Made by a program: the position numbers and the translations under genes
DNA from: a virus
Direction: 5' to 3' (one strand)
Length of the DNA stretch: 50,501 nt
IMG/VR virus record: IMGVR_UViG_3300005253_000162
Span: 1 to 50,501 of that record
Part shown: in pieces, positions 1-46,591 of the stretch
Position numbering within the stretch: the stretch's first letter is position 1
Layout of the letters: every line of letters begins with the position of its first letter
The notes under the pieces: generated by a model
Told to the model about the DNA's origin: nothing
Database searches by the model: none
What the model saw: only the letters and a program-made list of their open reading frames with translations

Positions 1-165
1 TTCTAATGCTCCTCTAGATTTCCCTGTTCCGACTGGCCCGCAAATAAGCATTTCATCGCCCTGATAGTACAGTGTTTCAAGCGCACTACCATAGGGTTGA
101 TATGCTTTATATCGCGGATCTTGCAATACCTGCTGATCCGCTACTGATAATTCTGTAGTAACCAT
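1..165 (-). CDS. terL: Terminase large subunit, N-terminal part (runs off the left edge)
   Basis: Only the first 55 residues are in the window. They contain a Walker A motif, GPVGTGKS at residues 43-50, preceded by a hydrophobic strand. This is the usual N-terminal layout of the phage packaging ATPase, which drives DNA into the prohead and cuts concatemers. The start is the ATG at 163-165, 6 bp after the upstream structural gene; the ribosome site is weak. The C-terminal nuclease domain lies outside the window. Another small P-loop protein is possible, but the position among late structural genes favours terminase. Confidence 0.75.
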   Translation of the reverse strand, partial: MVTTELSVADQQVLQDPRYKAYQPYGSALETLYYQGDEMLICGPVGTGKSRGALE

Positions 166-2006: not shown

Positions 2007-2455
2007 TATACCTTACTTTCGTCTATGCCAAGATAGACTTTGAAAATATTGACTCCGAGTGTATTGACTTCAAGATTAGCGCCTCCATCAAGATGCTGCG
2101 AAAGAAATCTTACAGTCTTTAACCACTGGTCGTAGTCCTCCATAACAAAAGTGTCGCCGTTTGCGAAAATAAATTTGCCTTCAGTAACGGCGTCCCAGAG
2201 CATAACAGCAAGATATTCGGCGTAAGGCATTTTCTCGCCCATGGGGGCGACGAATAGATCACGTTTGCCTACTGAGCGAATTAATTCGGCTATAAGGCGC
2301 TTTGATTCGATTGAAGATATCGGGGGCTGGATTACTTCTAAATCGTCCATAGGTACATTATACCATGGGTTGCGTTCTTTGTGTAGGGGTAAATTTTCAG
2401 GTTGCGGGATGTTGGGTTTTTGATATCCACTATTTTTATGCCCAATCACCTGCAA
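2006..2455 (-). CDS. Hypothetical late protein, possibly terminase small subunit-like
   Basis: Up to 149 residues from a TTG at 2455, with CAGG just upstream; an ATG at 2350 would give 114 residues. The N-terminal extension is Pro-rich and the body is helical, with a conserved-looking stretch YAEYLAVMLWDAVTEG. Being the first gene of the late operon that ends in the large terminase, it could be the small terminase subunit, but no helix-turn-helix is evident. A promoter-like TATAAT lies directly in front of the ATG at 2350, so the shorter, nearly leaderless form is a real alternative. Confidence 0.55.
   Translation of the reverse strand: MQVIGHKNSGYQKPNIPQPENLPLHKERNPWYNVPMDDLEVIQPPISSIESKRLIAELIRSVGKRDLFVAPMGEKMPYAEYLAVMLWDAVTEGKFIFANGDTFVMEDYDQWLKTVRFLSQHLDGGANLEVNTLGVNIFKVYLGIDESKV
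2352..2386 (-). promoter_or_regulatory. Candidate late promoter (leftward)
   Basis: On the minus strand TACACA at 2380-2385 and TATAAT at 2357-2362 are separated by 17 bp. An ACCC motif precedes the -35, as in the rightward promoters. Transcription would start at about 2350, on the internal ATG of the first late gene. It lies beyond the terminator of the GA-free cassette, so it could drive the late operon. Confidence 0.45.
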
Positions 2456-2504
2456 AGCAACCTGAATTTAGTGCAATTTGGGTAAACTTTACCCAATTTA
2501 CATG

Positions 2505-2543
2505 CAAAAAAAACTGTGGCTTGCTTGGCGCTTGCAAGCCACA
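2505..2543 (-). terminator. Intrinsic terminator of the GA-free cassette
   Basis: On the minus strand a perfect 10-bp stem (TGTGGCTTGC with GCAAGCCACA) with a 9-base loop is followed by eight U. It lies 25 bp beyond the stop of the leftward gene at 2568 and would end its transcript before the late operon. A second palindrome, TTGGGTAAA/TTTACCCAA, lies just beyond at about 2478-2497. Confidence 0.85.
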
Positions 2544-2567
2544 TTGCTGTAATAAAATTTGCGTTTT

Positions 2568-3218
2568 TTACTGGCCTTGCAACCTTACATTGTAAATTTT
2601 ATATGCGGGTTTTGTACCTTTTTGCAACATTGTTTGCAATTGGGCCGTTGTGGGCGGTGTTGGCGCTTTGCCAAAGTCACCGCTTGCCATAGCCTGTAAC
2701 CCCGCCGGTGTGCCACACCATGCGCTTATATACCGTGCACGGTTACCTACAATGTAGTAAAACTGTGCAATTGGGTGTGTAGGGGCATTGTACCCCTTGT
2801 CCGTACCAAATGCCCGTACCATACTACTAACCTTACACATAGTTTTGCCAGCCAGCGCCTGCGCTACAATGTGCTTGTGTAGCGCTGCTGTTTTTATGTA
2901 GCCTGGGGGTATGCCAGGTAAGGTTAACCTTACCCGTTGCGCCAGTGCTTTGGTGGGGCTGCCAAACTTTTTTTGTATTGCTGCGCAACGCATGCCATGG
3001 CCTGCTTTTAGCGTATTGCTTTTGCTAATACGCTTGCCACAGTATTGGCATTTGGTTGCCTTGGGGGTTGCTTTGGGGGTTGCTTTGGTGGGGGTTGCTT
3101 TGGTGGGGGTTGCTTTGGTGGGGGTTACTTTGGTGGTTGCTTTGGTGGCTGTGGTTGTGCTTACCATTGCAAAACCCATTGCCAAAAAACCAAAAAGTGT
3201 AACTAAAAATTGTAACAT
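2568..3218 (-). CDS. DUF6011-like zinc-finger protein with hydrophobic N-terminus and TKATP repeats
   Basis: A 216-residue protein. The start is the ATG at 3218, preceded by AAAGGTAGG; an ATG at 3275 overlaps the -10 box. Residues 1-18 are hydrophobic without charged residues, like an uncleaved signal anchor. About 25 residues of TKATP repeats follow, then a zinc-finger-like CQYCGK...GHGMRC, then a domain shared with the genes at 10974 and 20477 (PxGYIK, SSMVRAFGTDKG, RYIS, TPAGLQAM). The protein has no Glu and only two Asp, because the DNA avoids GA/TC. It has its own promoter and terminator, like a moron. Function unknown; DNA or RNA binding is a guess. Confidence 0.75.
   Translation of the reverse strand: MLQFLVTLFGFLAMGFAMVSTTTATKATTKVTPTKATPTKATPTKATPKATPKATKCQYCGKRISKSNTLKAGHGMRCAAIQKKFGSPTKALAQRVRLTLPGIPPGYIKTAALHKHIVAQALAGKTMCKVSSMVRAFGTDKGYNAPTHPIAQFYYIVGNRARYISAWCGTPAGLQAMASGDFGKAPTPPTTAQLQTMLQKGTKPAYKIYNVRLQGQ
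3048..3160 (-). repeat. Coding minisatellite (TKATP repeats)
   Basis: Inside the GA-free gene the minus strand repeats a 15-bp unit ACCAAAGCAACCCCC several times, with shortened units at the 3' end. It encodes TKATP/KATP repeats. The basic, disordered linker joins the hydrophobic N-terminus to the zinc-finger part, and its length can probably change by slippage. Confidence 0.8.
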
Positions 3219-3265
3219 TGTATTACCTACCTTTGGGTAACCTGCTTTGTTTGCGCCATAACCCC

Positions 3266-3296
3266 ATTGTAGCATAACCCACCATTTTTACAGTAA
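3266..3296 (-). promoter_or_regulatory. Candidate promoter of the GA-free cassette
   Basis: On the minus strand an extended -10, TGCTACAAT, lies at 3266-3274. No good -35 is visible at 17 bp (ACTGTA at best). Transcription would begin about 40 bases ahead of the chosen ATG at 3218. It abuts the 11-bp repeats, which could be operator sites. Confidence 0.4.
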
Positions 3297-3334
3297 AATT
3301 TGCGTAAAATTGGCGTAAAAATAGCATAAAAGTA
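3291..3334. repeat. Four phased 11-bp direct repeats (iteron or operator candidate)
   Basis: Four tandem units share the core G-C-G/A-T-A-A-A-A: CAGTAAAATTT, GCGTAAAATTG, GCGTAAAAATA and GCATAAAAGTA. The 11-bp period puts each copy on the same helix face. They lie in AT-rich DNA between divergent transcription units, upstream of the leftward cassette promoter. They could bind a repressor or a replication initiator. Confidence 0.65.
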
Positions 3335-3390
3335 CAAACTAATAAGGTAAATAATACCAATATAGTAATAATACCATAAAGGTATTGTTT

Positions 3391-3462
3391 ACCTTCTTTA
3401 CCTTTATTACCTTCTTTACCTTTATTACCTTCTTTACCTTTATTACCTTCTTTACCTTATTT
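3391..3462. repeat. Four 18-bp tandem repeats
   Basis: Three identical units ACCTTCTTTACCTTTATT are followed by a fourth with a small change. The run is pyrimidine-rich on the plus strand. A reading frame through it gives only Phe/Thr low-complexity peptide and was rejected. It ends the GA-depleted stretch and abuts the CGA-rich DNA. Confidence 0.9.
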
Positions 3463-3475
3463 ACCCACACCCCCC

Positions 3476-3606
3476 ACGAGCGTGACTGCGAGCGCGACCA
3501 CGAGTGCGAGCGCGAATCATGCGAATCACGAGCCCGAGCAACGATTAATGCGAATGACGAATTACGAATTACGATCCAGACGAATTACGATTTTTGCGAA
3601 TTGTCG
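3476..3606. repeat. CGA-rich degenerate repeat region 1
   Basis: About 17 CGA trinucleotides occur in 131 bp, in degenerate units of the form CGAATTACGA or GCGAGCGCGA. The same sequence type recurs at 4310-4435 and 5407-5512, each time directly ahead of a rightward promoter. No gene is evident in it. It could be a binding array or a repeat family derived from one ancestral intergenic sequence. Confidence 0.7.
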
Positions 3607-3613
3607 TACATCT

Positions 3614-3675
3614 TTATTAAAGTTTCATCAAATCACGACTAAACCCTTGCCAAACGAGAAGTTGTGTGCTATAAT
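3614..3675 (+). promoter_or_regulatory. Early promoter P1
   Basis: TTGCCA at 3647-3652, 17 bp, TATAAT at 3670-3675. An upstream box TTATTAAAGTTTCATCAAA at 3614 is shared with the promoters at 4477, 7768 and 10858. ACCC immediately precedes the -35, as in most members of the family. Confidence 0.85.
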
Positions 3676-4281: not shown

Positions 4282-4309
4282 TTTAGCGATCTACGAGCCA
4301 GAGCTTGCT

Positions 4310-4435
4310 GTGAGAAGATCTCGTACCTCGCAAATTACGATCTATGCGAATTATCGCGTTCGTAAATTCTCGCGAATCGTCGCGAATCGTCACGAATTAC
4401 GAGTTACCACGAATTACGACTACTACGAATTATCA
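4310..4435. repeat. CGA-rich degenerate repeat region 2
   Basis: The stretch contains repeated GCGAATCGTC, CACGAATTACGA and related units, like the region at 3476. It fills most of the gap between the terminator at 4281 and promoter P2. No gene is evident. Confidence 0.65.
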
Positions 4436-4442
4436 TAATATC

Positions 4443-5413: not shown

Positions 5414-5512
5414 TGCCTGACAATTCACGAGCATGACCCAGACCAATAAAGGTCTCACGCTCACGCTCGCGAATTATGTGAATTACACGAATTACAACGA
5501 TCGTTGCGAATT
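5407..5512. repeat. CGA-rich degenerate repeat region 3
   Basis: Contains CACGCTCACGCTCGCGAATTA and ACACGAATTACAACGA type units, like the regions at 3476 and 4310. It precedes promoter P3. No gene is evident between 5375 and 5855; the rest of that gap holds P3, the structured RNA and P4. Confidence 0.55.
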
Positions 5513-5545
5513 ATGATTACAAATACCAAAACTTCACCTGCGCCA

Positions 5546-6856: not shown

Positions 6857-7052
6857 GGTCGGAGACAAGGTACGAAATACGAGTACGAGATGAAACTGGT
6901 TATTAGGCGTCACAGGTACAATCGTGCGACGAGTGTCCGTGAACACTGACTACAGACTAAAGTACAGGAGCTATATTGTAGAGCTCGACGTTACGAACAA
7001 AACGCAACAAGTGAAAATGCGTTTTCGTGAAAGCGAATTACAGAAGGTGTAA
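6846..7052 (+). pseudogene. SH3-like domain gene interrupted by an in-frame TGA
   Basis: The frame from ATG 6846 to TAA 7052 encodes a clear family copy: MKFEVGDKVR at the start, GVTGTIVRR in the middle, FRESELQKV at the end. Codon 16 (6891-6893) is TGA. No good internal start follows. It is either a recently broken copy, a read-through gene or a sequence error. TGA serves as an ordinary stop elsewhere in the window. Confidence 0.7.
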
Positions 7053-7767
7053 CAAAAATTGTTGCAGGAGGCAGTTAGATGGTTTTTAGTTTGGGTCAGG
7101 TTAGCGCCAAATAATTAGTGTACCGTTTTGACCCCTCGAACCACAACTTTTATAATTATATATATACTCCCTACAAATTTGTAAACTTTTTACCTAAAAC
7201 CCTCAAAACGGTACACTAAGTATACGGCGCCAAACTGAGCACAAGTATTGCTTCTAATACGCCCAGCGAACCCATTGGACCCCATTAGAAGCATTACACC
7301 GACCAACAGTCAGCTGCGCTGAATATTTAGCCTAGCGTGCAAAAAAACCACCGTTTACCTACTTTTGAGGTATTAGAAACAGCCCTTTTCAGCGCCCTCG
7401 AAATCAATGCAACATTTTTTGCAATATGCTTCCAACTGCTTCTAACGCCTTCTTTTGCAATTCGCCCATGCAAAAGCTCTCACCATTAGCACTTTACCTT
7501 GCAAAATTTCACAAGTCTTCTTCAATTTTCACGCAATAATAAATGCCAATATGAGCCCACTGGCAACCAAAACGTACTGAGTACTATTGCAGCTTTTTGA
7601 CTGAATGAAGCCATATCCATGAAACCTTTTGAATCCTTTTGACGGATTAGAAGCCTAATATTTAGCTTTGCGTTATAATAACTTCTATTCTGACGTACAA
7701 AATGAATTGCGTATAGCCTGGCACTTTGTTCACACTTTTCATCATTATTAAAGTTTCATCAACGCCC
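7053..7767. other. Large non-coding region with inverted repeats
   Basis: No gene with a ribosome site is evident in about 700 bp. It contains a 17-bp inverted repeat flanking AT-rich DNA (7104-7231), the repeated word GCTTCTAAT in both orientations (7251, 7283, 7435, 7643), an 8-bp hairpin CTTTTGCA/TGCAAAAG near 7453-7477, and a GTACTGAGTAC palindrome near 7578. The composition differs from the CGA-rich genes just upstream. It is a candidate replication origin or recombination site. Confidence 0.55.
7104..7231. repeat. 17-bp perfect inverted repeat around an AT-rich core
   Basis: TTAGTGTACCGTTTTGA at 7115-7131 is exactly inverted at 7203-7219. Each arm is preceded, in its own orientation, by GCGCC and a partly shared 6-bp spacer, so the matching arms extend over 28 bp. 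The 71-bp core includes TATAATTATATATATA. This layout suits initiator binding around an unwinding element, or paired recombinase sites. Confidence 0.8.
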
Positions 7768-9491: not shown

Positions 9492-10340
9492 ATGAAATTT
9501 GCAATTGGCGACACAGTTAAGATAGTCAAGGACTACAACGCTGAGGAATACCACCAGGGCGTTTCTGATTACATTGGCAAAGTCGGCATAGTTCGACATA
9601 CCCAAGTCCAAGGCGTTCCAGCACCTGGGAACTATCAAGTTAGCTTGCTGACCAGCGATTTTCCTACTGGTCATAGTAAGGATGTTTTTACAGATTTTGG
9701 TCGTCCTGAGAGTTACTTGACGTGGTTTTATGATGATGAATTGGCAAAGGTCGAAACTAAGTCCGAAACTAAGTCCGAAACTATGTCCGAAGCCTCTGAA
9801 GAAAAGAGGCGTAAAATGTTTGAGATTAACGACAAAGTACAAGTTTCTGAACATGAAAAATCTACACATGACGCATATATCGGCAAACTAGGATTAGTTA
9901 CAGCGGTGACTACGCCAGGTGCGAAAAAATCGCAAGAAGCAAGAATTCGCTTTTTGAATGTAGATTTTTCATCGAGCATACTTGCCTACGCATCCAAAAA
10001 TACGGGATGCTACCATTTCGTATGGTTCGACAGTGCAGATTTGCAACTAGTCAAGAAAGCTGCAAAGATTAAAGTGCAAAAAGATGACACCGCACCAGAT
10101 GTACGGGATGTGCAAGTAGGTGATATTGTGCGTATGCGTCCCGATAACGACGACCTGGCGCACGTAGCCGGTATCGTCGGAATTATCGCAGGTGCAACAA
10201 AAGTCGGTGAATTCATAATTCACGCAAAATCACGGCAGTTTTCTCCGCACGTTAACTTTGAGGACTGCCCGTTTGCCGAAGACTCTGATGATACACGAGT
10301 CATGTGGGCTTGCTTGCACGAATTTACACTGCTTGACTAA
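9492..10340 (+). CDS. Three tandem SH3-like domains
   Basis: A 282-residue protein with an AAAAAGGAG site. Domain 1 (about 1-87) starts MKFAIGDTVKI and ends LTWFYDDELAKV. A linker of repeated KSET units, encoded by 12-bp DNA repeats, follows. Domain 2 (about 108-190) starts MFEINDKVQV and ends HFVWFDSADLQLV. Domain 3 (about 205-282) starts VQVGDIVRM and ends CLHEFTLL. It is a natural fusion of the domain found singly in six other genes here. Confidence 0.8.
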   Translation: MKFAIGDTVKIVKDYNAEEYHQGVSDYIGKVGIVRHTQVQGVPAPGNYQVSLLTSDFPTGHSKDVFTDFGRPESYLTWFYDDELAKVETKSETKSETMSEASEEKRRKMFEINDKVQVSEHEKSTHDAYIGKLGLVTAVTTPGAKKSQEARIRFLNVDFSSSILAYASKNTGCYHFVWFDSADLQLVKKAAKIKVQKDDTAPDVRDVQVGDIVRMRPDNDDLAHVAGIVGIIAGATKVGEFIIHAKSRQFSPHVNFEDCPFAEDSDDTRVMWACLHEFTLLD

Positions 10341-10886: not shown

Positions 10887-10973
10887 GATTGCATAGTGGG
10901 GTAACAACAGAACCTTACCAAACAGATGCACTGGAGTTGGTGCATCGCCTTACACAAAAAAAGGAGGTCCAAA

Positions 10974-11498
10974 ATGACCGCAAAAACTCAGAGTAAAACG
11001 CAAGAGATAGCAACCGCATTAGACCTGGCTGTGGGCGAAGATCCCACAACTCCAGCTAATGACCAAGCAAGATGCCGCCATTGCGGTAAGTGGCTGCTCA
11101 AAGAAAGCTCCGTTGAGATAGAGCAGGGCGACTACTGTGCCCACATTCGCGAGCAGGGTTGGGATGATGCCACACTCGTAAAGCACCGGCTGTCTATGAC
11201 TAAGGACGAAGTGCCCGAGAACTACATTAAGGTCACAGGGCAACTCAATCCTATATGCCGGAAAAACGGCGTGCCAGTTGGCAGGATGGTTACTGCAATC
11301 GGCGGCGATCGTTGCTTGGAGGGCGTAAGCCCCGTTGATCCAAGGCTTACCCCCATATACTCAGGGCGTAACAGGTGGGTTAGTCCCTGGGCCGCAACTC
11401 CCGAAGGCTTGGCCAGAATCATTGGGGTAAAGCCTTTGAGGAACATGGACAAGCTAGACAAGAAAGTTCTCTCTGCGTGGGAGAAAATGTACGGGTAA
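10974..11498 (+). CDS. DUF6011-like zinc-finger protein (paralogue of 2568 and 20477)
   Basis: A 174-residue protein starting at MTAKTQSK after AAAGGAGG. Residues 34-57 contain CRHCGK and GDYCAH, a DUF6011-like zinc site. Residues about 75-165 share with the other two paralogues PxNYIK, VGRMVTAIGGDR, NRWVSP and ATPEGLARI. This copy has normal base composition and plenty of Glu and Asp, in sharp contrast to the GA-free copy at 2568. Function unknown. Confidence 0.75.
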   Translation: MTAKTQSKTQEIATALDLAVGEDPTTPANDQARCRHCGKWLLKESSVEIEQGDYCAHIREQGWDDATLVKHRLSMTKDEVPENYIKVTGQLNPICRKNGVPVGRMVTAIGGDRCLEGVSPVDPRLTPIYSGRNRWVSPWAATPEGLARIIGVKPLRNMDKLDKKVLSAWEKMYG

Positions 11499-20476: not shown

Positions 20477-20959
20477 ATGGCAGAAAAATCCACCGCGATT
20501 GCGGACAAAGCAAAAAAGAAAGAAAGTACACGTCGTAAGTTCCGGGACGAAAACTGGACGGAAGAGCAGGTTATTGCTCGACGTGCGAAACTAACCGTAA
20601 AGGAACTTCCTGAAGGTTGGATTAAACTCGCACATGTAGCAGACGTCTTTCGCGAGAAGAAAATTGCAGTTTCTCGCCTTGTGCGTGCGACTGGCGGTGA
20701 CAGAGGTATGTATCCGCCCAAGGATCCAGTTTTCCGGATCGTATACTTCAATGGCGCACGTTACTTGCATCCAGATGTCCTTACCGCAGGTATCAGTCTT
20801 ATGGCTGATCCAAACTACGGTAAAGTTCCCCGCAAAAAGAAAGCCAAAACAGACAAAGCAGCGAGCAAAACTTCGAAAAAGAAAGCTGCTCCGCAAGCGA
20901 AGAAAGCCACGGTTAAATCCGTTGGACGTCCGAGTCCTCTTCAAGGACAAAAAGGTTAG
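20477..20959 (+). CDS. Paralogue of the 2568/10974 family with a histone-like basic tail
   Basis: A 160-residue protein with an AAAAAGGAG site. Residues about 40-115 match the family core: PEGWIK, VSRLVRATGGDRGM, ARYLH. It lacks the zinc finger. The N-terminus and the C-terminal 45 residues are very rich in Lys and Ala, like histone H1 tails, which points to DNA binding. It stands alone behind its own promoter. Confidence 0.75.
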   Translation: MAEKSTAIADKAKKKESTRRKFRDENWTEEQVIARRAKLTVKELPEGWIKLAHVADVFREKKIAVSRLVRATGGDRGMYPPKDPVFRIVYFNGARYLHPDVLTAGISLMADPNYGKVPRKKKAKTDKAASKTSKKKAAPQAKKATVKSVGRPSPLQGQKG

Positions 20960-29689: not shown

Positions 29690-32209
29690 TTATTGCAACA
29701 TGACATTGAAACGTATTTTTAGAACCTCTTTGCGTTTATGCGGATCAAACTCATCTTTAAATTCAGCTTGAAAATCGTCGCACAACCTTTCTTTTAGCGT
29801 AGAAAAGTGTCGATAAAGTCCTTGCGAACTTTTCCATTTAAATGTTTGGCGACGTGCTTGCGACATAGTTTGTAAGATATCAAATAATTGTGGGAATGTT
29901 TTCCATTCAGAAGCTTCTTGTGGTTTCAAAGTTAACCACTCTTCCAATAAAAATATCGCTTGCGAGCTTTCTTTTAATTGTTTCATTTGGCTATCAACCA
30001 TTGACAACAATCCGCCGGATAAATTTTTCGCGTGAATAATTTTAGATTTTTTTATTTTTTCACAGAAGACAGTAAAGTCAACCAATCTACTTTTAGTGGG
30101 CGGTAGAACCATTGGATCGTCTTTCAAAATTTCAACAACACTGCTTAATTTGATTAATAAATCTGCCCATATTGCTGGACCGTACTCCCTGATTTTACGC
30201 TGCAAAACATATTCAGGTAATGGTGTAGTCAGTTTAGTCATCTCAAGTACAAGCAATCGTGTAAATAATGTTTCATCACTAAACGGCATATTTACGGCTG
30301 TGATAGCAACAAAACATTGTGGAACAATCGTATATTTTCTATTCGTATGGTACAATTTACGAAGCTCAATATGACTTCCGGTTGAGAGTTTGTTCAATAA
30401 ATCAACTAGCCACCAAACGCCTGATTTTTCTAGATTGTCCAGTGCCAATAATCTATGCGAAGAAATACTCGCTCGCAACGCATCTTGTTTATCTGTAGGT
30501 ATTGATAATACGTCTGAATCAGGTTCTTCCAAAATTCGCAATATACGACGTATAGCCGTAGTTTTCCCTGAACCTTGTATTCCAAGCATTGCAAGTATCG
30601 GTTTCGTCGGCAACATCTCTTGAAAAAAATATGCTAATAACCACGCTTTCAATAATTCTTTTTGCTCATCCGGTGTAGCTGGAGCTTCTGAGGATGTTGT
30701 AAAAGACAAATCGTTAACCAAATGATCCCAAGTATCAACTCGCTGAGTGTCAAAATCAGGTATGACATATTCACCAGAAATATTTGTTATGAACATATAA
30801 CCGCATTCACCATTGTATGACTTATCAATTTTACCTTCACCACTAATTATGTATACCTCAGGGCCACCTAGATTAACATATAATTTTTTTGCCGACTCAG
30901 ACCAAAAAGTTCGATGCAAAATTGGAATAATCGGTGCATCACGAATTATCCGTAGCCGTAATTCAGTAGCAGTTAATTTGCTGAAATTTTCTATAGGATT
31001 TAAGCCAAAAATCTTGTTCAATAATGAATCCCATTGTTCGCTACCTTCATCAATAACTGTATGCGTTTCCGAATCGTACCAGTATGCCAAATTTTCTTTA
31101 TTTTGAAATATCTTACAGCCACTGTCATGTAGAATAGTCCATATAACTGATGCGGCAAGTCTAGCTGACTCCAGCTTTGGTCGTCCTCTGGAATATCGTA
31201 TGTCATCAATTTGCGCAACAGTATCTGGAGCACGTATAAGCGATACAAGCTCAGATAACTTCTGCATCGCTGAAACGGGTAATATTTCTCCCAGACCTTG
31301 TCGTCCACGAACACTTTTTCCTTCTTTATGTCGACTGAACGTTGTTTGAACTGTTTGTAATCGGTTGCGTAGTTCGTCATCGTCACTACGTGTAACTATT
31401 TTACGAATTAATTCCTTCGTTTGGTCAACACCCCATCCTTCATGTGCTAAGTAACCACTGAGAAATAAACTAAGATCATGCCTAACTCCATCACGCCAAT
31501 AGGCTGAAATAAGCTCTACTAATTGTGTCTCTAAATCTGGACCTGACTCTATTATTGCTAAGACATCTTCAGCAGAAGCTTTGTAAGATAAAATATCACA
31601 AGGTTCTAATATAGGTCCAGTTTCCCAACCGTTCAGCATATCCACGAATATACTTTGCGCATGTGACCGTGGATGAACACCTAAAGGAATTTTTAGTAGA
31701 TTACCTTTTGGTCTACTACGAGTTAATCTATCTTGTTTGGGAAAACATTCAACATGTGTTGACCCACGTTTCTGTAAACCCTCACTTTCACGTACCCAGT
31801 CAACAATCTTTTTTGCATCTACTGCTGGTAAAGGTTCTTTTAAGAAAACTAGCACATGATAACCTTTGCCGCCAGAATATTCCACGGCATACGGTACATG
31901 CTCTAGATATTTTGTAATTTGCTCGACTAACTTTCTTGCTTTTAGAATATCTGAGCTATCTACATCCCAACCAAACCATTTAACAGCATCAATACCCTGC
32001 ATTAATTGATAACTGCCTAGAATGACCTTGCCCTTTGTATGTTCTTTAATATTTTCGTATTCTAATGCAAGCTCCACAGGCTTGTAATACATATCTGCAT
32101 CGGAAACAATACACTTTGCATAGTAAGGATTTCCGCCAAATATTTCTAATAATAATTTTTCAACATTTTTAGAGCGTATCTTATCTTGAACTGCAAGTTG
32201 AGCCGTCAT
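29690..32209 (-). CDS. AEP primase-helicase fusion
   Basis: An 839-residue protein with an AGGAAGG site. The N-terminal part is an archaeo-eukaryotic primase of the TOTE-like type: WDVD (D82, D84), SGGKGYH at 112-118, VECFPKQD and GNLLKIPLGVH. The C-terminal half is a P-loop helicase with GIQGSGKTT at 543-551 and LLALDN at 587-592. It primes and unwinds DNA at the phage fork. It lies next to the family A polymerase. Confidence 0.88.
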   Translation of the reverse strand: MTAQLAVQDKIRSKNVEKLLLEIFGGNPYYAKCIVSDADMYYKPVELALEYENIKEHTKGKVILGSYQLMQGIDAVKWFGWDVDSSDILKARKLVEQITKYLEHVPYAVEYSGGKGYHVLVFLKEPLPAVDAKKIVDWVRESEGLQKRGSTHVECFPKQDRLTRSRPKGNLLKIPLGVHPRSHAQSIFVDMLNGWETGPILEPCDILSYKASAEDVLAIIESGPDLETQLVELISAYWRDGVRHDLSLFLSGYLAHEGWGVDQTKELIRKIVTRSDDDELRNRLQTVQTTFSRHKEGKSVRGRQGLGEILPVSAMQKLSELVSLIRAPDTVAQIDDIRYSRGRPKLESARLAASVIWTILHDSGCKIFQNKENLAYWYDSETHTVIDEGSEQWDSLLNKIFGLNPIENFSKLTATELRLRIIRDAPIIPILHRTFWSESAKKLYVNLGGPEVYIISGEGKIDKSYNGECGYMFITNISGEYVIPDFDTQRVDTWDHLVNDLSFTTSSEAPATPDEQKELLKAWLLAYFFQEMLPTKPILAMLGIQGSGKTTAIRRILRILEEPDSDVLSIPTDKQDALRASISSHRLLALDNLEKSGVWWLVDLLNKLSTGSHIELRKLYHTNRKYTIVPQCFVAITAVNMPFSDETLFTRLLVLEMTKLTTPLPEYVLQRKIREYGPAIWADLLIKLSSVVEILKDDPMVLPPTKSRLVDFTVFCEKIKKSKIIHAKNLSGGLLSMVDSQMKQLKESSQAIFLLEEWLTLKPQEASEWKTFPQLFDILQTMSQARRQTFKWKSSQGLYRHFSTLKERLCDDFQAEFKDEFDPHKRKEVLKIRFNVMLQ

Positions 32210-45194: not shown

Positions 45195-46591
45195 ACTACT
45201 TTCAAGGGTATATCAGCAAATTCCATAACAATCTCTTCTCGTTTGTTTTCGCCGGAGATTAATATTCTACGTCCAACTATACGTTTATTTCTCTGTACAT
45301 CACCATATTTTGCAGTTACACGATCGCCAAGAAAATAATGTACACCATATAATGAATTTGGTTGTTGTAAAGGCGAGAAAATAAAAATTTCTTTAGCTTG
45401 CAATTCTTGCAAAGATTCACTACCAGCTGTCTCCAATTGATAGACGAATTCTTGTCCGGAAGCATTACGTGTTACCTCACGTCTATTCCATGGCGAATCT
45501 GCAATAGCTGTTTCATCGCGAGAAACTTGTACAGAACGTGTTGAAAGATCGCCTTGTCCAAGTACAAAAATAATATTCGCTTCGGACATACGGTCATATT
45601 GATAAGTCATATTTTGTACACTTCCCATAGGTACACTGAATACTACTGGAACATTACCCGCAGCATTTTTACCTGTTGACGAATTTAAACCCTCAACTGT
45701 TCGATCAGCACCTAATTGTCCAACAAAAGTTTTGAAAATAAATTTTGCGAGAGCTTGTCCTTCAACTTTATAATCGATTCCAGAAAAATTTGCAATGTCT
45801 ATTAAAACATCCAATAAATTTTCAGCAGGTCTGCTACCACTCCATAATTTACCTGCACCATTATCAACGTCAATTGAAAATCCAGGAAGAACTCCAGGCG
45901 CATCAATAAATGTACCGCTTCCATAATCAGCTTCGAACTTACGTCCATTAGCAGGAGTTGCTGATGGACCGCAATTTTCTTCAGCATATTCTTTCATTGC
46001 AGTTTCCGATGGTATTAAATTTTTGTCTGCTCTGACCGTTCCACCAAGATATGCAATTGTAGTTCGCGCTAATAAATCTGCGTAATCAAATCCAGAACTA
46101 GAAAAAACTTTTACACCGTTTTGATTGATGCCACGAAATGGCGTACGATGTAGCCCTTCAAATTCTAAAGCCCACGGCAACATCCCAGGAATTGAACGAT
46201 AAATTTCTATTTGTCCATCCAACTCGAATAAATTAAACCTTGAATCCGAGTTATCGCGAAAAGTCAAAACATATGTACCAAGACTGTTTACTTTAGACGA
46301 AATTTCTAATGACAACCAATCATCAAATAATGCAACTTGTACACCACTTTGATCTTTTAATCGTATATAATATCTTGATGCAATATTTCCAAAAGCTGGA
46401 GTTGTAACAGCGCAGGGAATAACAATAGGTTCAACATATTTAACAAGTACTTCTAAAACAGCTTGTGTTACTCTTCCTTTTTGAGTACTTGGTTCAGCAA
46501 GTACCTCCAAAGGAGATTGAGTTACCCTTCCTTTTTGGGTATTGGGTTCTGCCAATACTTCTAAAGGAGCTTGAGTTACTCGTCCTGACAT
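45191..46591 (-). CDS. Tail protein, Gp37-like domain, with N-terminal 18-residue repeats
   Basis: A 466-residue protein with a GGAG site. Residues 3-50 are three copies of an 18-residue unit (GRVTQAPLEVLAEPNTQK). The main part (about 70-460) resembles the siphovirus ReqiPepy6 Gp37-like tail domain: long beta domain, NLLDVLIDIANFSGIDY, and a C-terminal GDRVTAKYG strand. It is probably a baseplate hub component. Confidence 0.75.
   Translation of the reverse strand: MSGRVTQAPLEVLAEPNTQKGRVTQSPLEVLAEPSTQKGRVTQAVLEVLVKYVEPIVIPCAVTTPAFGNIASRYYIRLKDQSGVQVALFDDWLSLEISSKVNSLGTYVLTFRDNSDSRFNLFELDGQIEIYRSIPGMLPWALEFEGLHRTPFRGINQNGVKVFSSSGFDYADLLARTTIAYLGGTVRADKNLIPSETAMKEYAEENCGPSATPANGRKFEADYGSGTFIDAPGVLPGFSIDVDNGAGKLWSGSRPAENLLDVLIDIANFSGIDYKVEGQALAKFIFKTFVGQLGADRTVEGLNSSTGKNAAGNVPVVFSVPMGSVQNMTYQYDRMSEANIIFVLGQGDLSTRSVQVSRDETAIADSPWNRREVTRNASGQEFVYQLETAGSESLQELQAKEIFIFSPLQQPNSLYGVHYFLGDRVTAKYGDVQRNKRIVGRRILISGENKREEIVMEFADIPLKVV
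46440..46588 (-). repeat. Three 54-bp in-frame repeats at the 5' end of the tail gene
   Basis: Three copies encode GRVTQ-x-x-LEVL units of 18 residues; the third is truncated and more diverged. The copies share most bases, so the expansion is fairly recent. They may be a flexible tether or docking motif. Confidence 0.8.

Follow-up and report, generated by a model that had tools for sequence, protein, structure and literature searches.

Strand-specific exclusion of the dinucleotide TC beside terS in metagenomic phages

The window analyzed here (50,501 nt; positions 1 to 50,501 of IMG/VR record IMGVR_UViG_3300005253_000162) opens with the start of a terL gene (terminase large subunit; 1 to 120, minus strand, cut by the window edge) and carries a terS-like gene at 2009 to 2455 (minus strand), assigned from position and conservation, with no Pfam match. 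Four genes separate the two (172 to 2006), one of which matches PHROG 18503 (E value, 1e-12; function unknown); in the relatives described below, terL comes closely after terS. One copy of the motif AAAAATA[GT][TC][GC]GA[CT], AAAAATAGTGGAT (2425 to 2437, minus strand), is a candidate terminase or TerS site. An AEP-TOTE primase fused to a helicase-like ATPase is encoded at 29690 to 32209 (minus strand; Pfam PF22548; E value, 6e-20). Two other genes contain in-frame tandem repeats of 12 bp (9752 to 9791) and 54 bp (46444 to 46586).

Directly upstream of the terS-like gene lies a tract poor in GA and TC (hereafter the desert), which holds a gene on the minus strand (2571 to 3218) for a zinc-finger-type protein (CxxCGK...GxxC). 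As the initial annotation of this DNA had stated, the 216-residue product has no Glu and two Asp (Asp plus Glu, 2). A longer open reading frame (to 3275) begins within an apparent −10 box, so the start at 3218 is preferred. That box is a candidate extended −10 element (TGC TACAAT; 3266 to 3271, minus strand), read by eye and weak, with no match in a promoter scan. The gene ends in a predicted intrinsic terminator (2505 to 2545, minus strand; −17 kcal/mol; 10-bp stem and then a run of 8 T). Upstream of the gene are 11-bp-phased repeats of TTTACG type (3293 to 3331, minus strand), a tandem repeat of TTACCTTCTTTACCTTTA that closes the desert on the early-gene side (3388 to 3465), and intergenic DNA rich in CGA (3474 to 3650), the reverse of the desert in composition, which bears out the CGA-rich flank described earlier. 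Further GA/TC-rich intergenic repeats occur in early regions, at 4300 to 4440 and 5440 to 5530 as well as 3474 to 3650 in the window (repeat unit, CGAATTACGA), their composition again opposite to that of the desert.

Two paralogues of the desert gene in the window (10926 to 11498 and 20477 to 20959, both plus strand) have normal GA/TC content, and the CxxCGK...GxxC zinc-finger-like motif is shared across the gene's phage family. Searches of Pfam, PHROGs, and NCBIfam placed the desert protein in no family beyond weak matches, and a fold search with its predicted structure (mean pLDDT, 75) gave no convincing match. Among viral contigs and cultured phages, a direct protein search with the desert gene came up empty; relatives were reached via the paralogues and the neighboring terminase genes instead.

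Positions 2466 to 3394 (929 bp) contain no GA and two TC (at 2677 and 2800), where base composition predicts ~50 GA and ~71 TC; the recount returned figures identical to those first reported. The nearest bounding dinucleotides are a GA at 2464 and a TC at 3395. The plus strand has no GA for 1014 bp (2464 to 3478), which gives a single-strand tract without 5′-TC-3′ on the minus, gene-sense strand (2465 to 3478; 1014 bp), although the portion past 3394 is the C-poor tandem repeat and is given little weight. Outside the desert, the longest run in the window without GA or TC is 58 bp. Dinucleotide odds, a check proposed with the initial annotation, are normal for the window as a whole (GA and TC both 0.96). 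Under the genome's own P(C|T), zero TC on the gene-sense strand has a log10 P of −19.6. The GC content of the desert is 0.44 versus 0.39 for the genome of the window phage, and CT/AG is mildly depleted inside the desert in all six phages of this study. The initial annotation, exact in its counts, had missed this mild depletion, the raised GC, and the strand specificity seen in relatives.

In six phages, including that of the window, a GA/TC-poor tract lies directly upstream of a terS-like gene and holds a homologous zinc-finger gene. A first comparison covered contigs with the same polymerase/primase set, three of which hold terS (G002, G005, and G011; IMG/VR records IMGVR_UViG_3300024265_000045, 3300005077_000018, and 3300035701_000016), and all three have a GA/TC trough directly upstream of it. 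L139 and L140 (records 3300027885_000133 and 3300021069_000117) came from searching viral contigs with the terminase genes and have 0 and 3 GA plus TC in a 400-bp interval versus 51 and 56 expected. All five closest terL relatives have the trough, and the remaining loci among 83 from the terL searches have no such trough in GA/TC or any other dinucleotide. In the terL tree, built without the window's terL, which is too short, the five desert phages form one clade (support, 100/99). The sister clade (L226, L232, and G009) also has this zinc-finger gene a short distance upstream of terS, with no desert where examined. Across 3.16 Mb of viral loci, the top 22 dinucleotide-free gaps, when ranked by expected count, consist of TC or GA gaps only, every one at the desert locus of the window phage or its relatives. 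The group comprises six members, all on metagenomic contigs and several of these incomplete. No seventh came from searches with terS or the zinc-finger family, and among desert-bearing phages a search of viral contigs with the boundary motif again returned L139 and L140 only.

Other dinucleotide gaps were weighed and rejected: those in L014 (an acidic repeat), L150, and G011 (57.6 kb) are smaller in scale and fall in acidic-repeat or low-complexity genes. The deserts of L139 (4227 to 5166) and L140 (4427 to 5431) are equally extreme; Asp and Glu are both missing from the L139 desert protein (204 aa), and its paralogue at 2304 to 2675 is normal. Weaker secondary GA/TC troughs (odds, ~0.5 to 0.65) occur in the early regions of G002 (40.2 to 40.7 kb), the window (7001 to 7500), and L139 (801 to 1600), and GA/TC-rich early-region repeats are also present in L140 (3497 to 3600; unit, CGTGGTATCGCGCTCAAGAACGAT) and G011 (71.16 to 73.0 kb). 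A further relative with the same primase family, G015 (59,731 bp), is without the TerL-terS-desert segment, its contig starting in the gene located just after terL in G002.

The tract is not represented in any close relative, and alignable nucleotide sequence is almost nil between the tracts, the exception being 27 bp upstream of the desert gene that are alike in the window and G002. The TTTACG-type repeats upstream of the desert gene in these two phages are helically phased and iteron- or operator-like; L140 carries other repeats, TTACATTTGGC, at their position. The conserved feature is a composition rule at one place rather than a nucleotide sequence. The desert is confirmed as neither an artefact nor a one-off: the metagenome search for further deserts and homologues that the initial annotation had called for yielded five diverged phages whose tract has the same location. 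The annotation had also offered, as one origin, transfer from a genome with this bias, which does not fit a tract kept at one syntenic position with almost no shared nucleotide sequence.

TC and GA were counted on the strand that is sense for each desert's zinc-finger gene. The TC-free sense strand measures 1014 bp in the window, 1009 bp in G005, 1023 bp in L139, 1004 bp in L140, and 1366 bp in G011, i.e., near 1.0 kb in four phages despite differing gene lengths; G002 is the exception (15 TC in 1060 bp), and an extended-motif analysis found no context rule for its residual TC. GA on the same strand, in the islands as delimited, numbers 2 in the window, 33 in G005, 1 in L139, 7 in L140, 69 in G011, and 41 in G002. 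The TC/GA asymmetry is significant in G005 (P = 2e-10), G011 (P = 3e-21), and G002 (P = 7e-4) and borderline in L140 (P = 0.07). Sense-strand TC is the lower count in 6/6 phages, with a nonsignificant difference in the window and L139, where almost empty strands on both sides leave asymmetry beyond assessment. The strict strand is terS-antisense in G002, G005, G011, and L140; the gene unit of the window is inverted relative to terS. Depletion extends to all eight GA- or TC-containing trinucleotides, which makes the unit two bases long. TC exclusion beside terS is both conserved and strand specific, and asymmetries of 0 TC to 33 GA and 0 TC to 69 GA require a reader of single strands.

The initial annotation held that the depletion is a property of DNA rather than protein and spans the gene, its terminator, and upstream DNA, with protein composition bending to it. 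Both points stand. With amino acids held fixed, TC on the sense strand is 0 versus 25 expected (minimum of 12 in 500 draws), and Asp plus Glu number 0 to 3 in the proteins of two-strand deserts versus 9 to 16 in those of one-strand deserts, so that protein composition follows the DNA rule. Whether the rule acts on DNA or on the transcript bears on one of the two stronger alternatives, namely, that a UC-free desert mRNA survives an RNase or toxin cutting at UC during infection. Such avoidance would agree with UC of the sense strand being the lower count throughout and with a strong terminator 18 to 165 nt before the end of each tract. TC is also missing, however, upstream of predicted transcription start sites (2 versus 12.1 expected; P = 5e-4; fixed windows), whose promoters are consensus matches mostly no commoner than in shuffled sequence (that of the window being read by eye), and after terminators (5 versus 16.1 expected; P = 1e-3; fixed windows). 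Since the tract passes both predicted promoter and predicted terminator, it looks like a property of DNA and not of mRNA; depletion past the transcript ends is support rather than proof, because those ends are predicted. Three phages have lost GA too, and paralogous genes of the same family retain normal UC. Selection on the message is, on balance, unlikely.

An alternative of the same standing is that TC is read on a single strand, or strand specifically, by another enzyme, whether one that makes genome ends (terminase or nickase), an exonuclease of recombination, or a nuclease of the host that attacks ssDNA in first-entering or terminal DNA. The location favors it, with the desert directly beside terS and the motif AAAAATA[GT][TC][GC]GA[CT] between desert and terS in 6/6 phages, nearly unique per contig, albeit defined post hoc and shorter or degenerate in G011 and G002. 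So does a cultured relative. By TerL, the two closest cultured phages are Streptomyces phage Dagobah (MT711977), which is annotated with a primase/polymerase, and Thermobifida phage P1312. Dagobah has a 1187-bp direct terminal repeat, deduced from coverage steps, immediately upstream of the gene before terL (PMC7650747), which is the place taken by the desert. The strongest GA/TC trough of Dagobah falls within this repeat (5 versus 30.7 expected), although it covers only ~200 of the 1187 bp and affects both strands. For P1312, an equally near relative by TerL, circular permutation is reported (PMC6893835), so the cultured relatives disagree on a terminus setting. Strand also speaks against an end-making or entry-related enzyme, the gene unit of the window being inverted with respect to terS while the strict strand is terS-antisense in four relatives. 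We know of no enzyme with a two-base, strand-specific site in these phages, and we regard this explanation, too, as doubtful.

A very short site avoided in dsDNA (because of restriction, a CRISPR PAM, or dsDNA modification of first-injected DNA) would suit the two empty strands of the window, L139, and L140, but G005 and G011 have no TC and yet 33 and 69 GA, so that the duplex site in question is present many times over. Because a dsDNA reader cannot tell TC from GA, 0 versus 69 excludes restriction, PAM, dsDNA deaminase, and dsDNA modification alike; the equal depletion on both strands expected of restriction or PAM avoidance is absent from G011 (0/69) and G005 (0/33), the strand asymmetry contradicts evasion of a very short recognition site as first suggested, and this family of explanations is very improbable. 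Erasure of TC through a cytosine deaminase with TC specificity (DddA-like or of APOBEC/AID type), the cause that the initial annotation had put forward, matches the two-base context, a strand-specific ssDNA deaminase could give the asymmetry, and the TC-free strand of G011 has less C than G. The footprint of low GC, scarce C, and excess TT is nevertheless absent from the six-phage counts: four deserts exceed the genome in GC and two match it, C equals or outnumbers G on the TC-free strand of the window, L139, and G005, most phages have TT no higher than renormalized expectation, and sharp edges are retained across long divergence. C-to-T deamination does not fit such counts, a DddA-type enzyme being further contradicted by 0 TC with 33 or 69 GA on one strand, and we consider it extremely unlikely. 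Equally implausible is that the desert is left unmodified while a DpdA-like enzyme hypermodifies GA elsewhere in the genome, GA being a known modification context (DpdA of phage CAjan reportedly has GA and GGC motifs), since one strand keeps GA in three phages; no TGT/DpdA (PF01702) or QueC (PF06508) member was found in the window, G002, G005, G011, or G015, records that may be incomplete, with positive controls.

The evidence points to a process that reads a two-letter word on ssDNA, perhaps the work of a strand-initiating enzyme. Whatever reads the word must see one strand, need two bases, and matter over ~1 kb, and primases fit this description. The explanation that we favor, at a probability of roughly 0.4, takes the desert to be primase silent and to lie at a genome terminus or origin, one strand being free of the two-base start word of the phage primase to the point of overriding amino-acid choice. 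We infer for it a single-strand step, the primase as reader of TC, and a terminus or origin as the setting. At some step, one strand of the ~1-kb zone by the terminase genes would be exposed as ssDNA and would have to escape an enzyme recognizing TC, most likely the phage's own AEP-TOTE primase, which would start with pppG-A opposite 5′-TC-3′. A lagging-strand template lacking TC would stay unprimed, with no lagging-strand primers within the zone. At a genome end or terminal repeat, the result would be a long 3′ overhang through which ends could more readily be joined into concatemers; at an origin, the displaced strand would be silent and initiation would stay one-directional. Where both strands must be silent, GA would vanish too and the protein would lose Asp and Glu; terminal repeats at both ends would expose opposite strands, which would explain why both are cleared in some phages.

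An AEP-TOTE primase is encoded in the window, G002, G005, and G011, with the same family also in G015. AEP primases start on 2- to 3-nt pyrimidine templates, and several favor GTP first (PMC10345425). The mild AG/CT depletion is what a second-best start site would give. Also in favor are the restriction of the desert to one terL clade, the TC depletion past the predicted transcript ends, and the terminal repeat of Dagobah with its trough, while the reported permutation of P1312 speaks against a terminus. Against a primase-silent zone, CC and TT are not depleted, and G002 has a similar primase and a leaky desert. The T7 primase recognizes GTC, and the 160-bp terminal repeat of T7 is not depleted in that site. 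In the literature searched, we found neither a published primase-silent zone nor a natural 1-kb zone without primase sites.

A two-base, strand-specific exclusion under selection across deep divergence suggests an enzyme that reads one strand with almost no sequence demand, and here a constraint on DNA drives protein composition, all Glu and nearly all Asp being lost. Were the primase explanation true, the desert would be a genome element defined by the absence of a word rather than by sequence; sequence alone would then be enough to locate, through deserts, primase start sites and genome ends or origins, and the handling of lagging-strand ends by linear phage DNA would become directly testable.

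Among known systems, restriction-site and PAM avoidance in phage genomes likewise reflects selection against a short DNA word, but there the duplex site is lost from both strands, whereas here one strand is empty and the other may keep the word. ACA-free messages resist the MazF interferase and resemble the desert in that a word is absent from the sense strand of one gene; the desert, in contrast, also affects flanks outside the predicted transcript, and its word is two bases. The Dagobah-type repeat is similar in size (~1.2 kb) and position, abutting the upstream side of the gene before terL, and has small genes in antisense orientation, but only ~200 bp of it is depleted, without strand specificity, and the desert phages are known from metagenomic records classed as linear. 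Primase template sites are two- to three-base words read on ssDNA, e.g., 3′-RCC-5′ for CAPP and 3′-GYY-5′ for HSV (PMC10345425), and an AEP-type primase, with TC as its putative start word, is encoded here. As a class, the single-strand TC-exclusion zone, a TC-free strand of ~1 kb beside terS that carries a zinc-finger gene, is present in the window, G005, G011, L139, and L140 and in part in G002.
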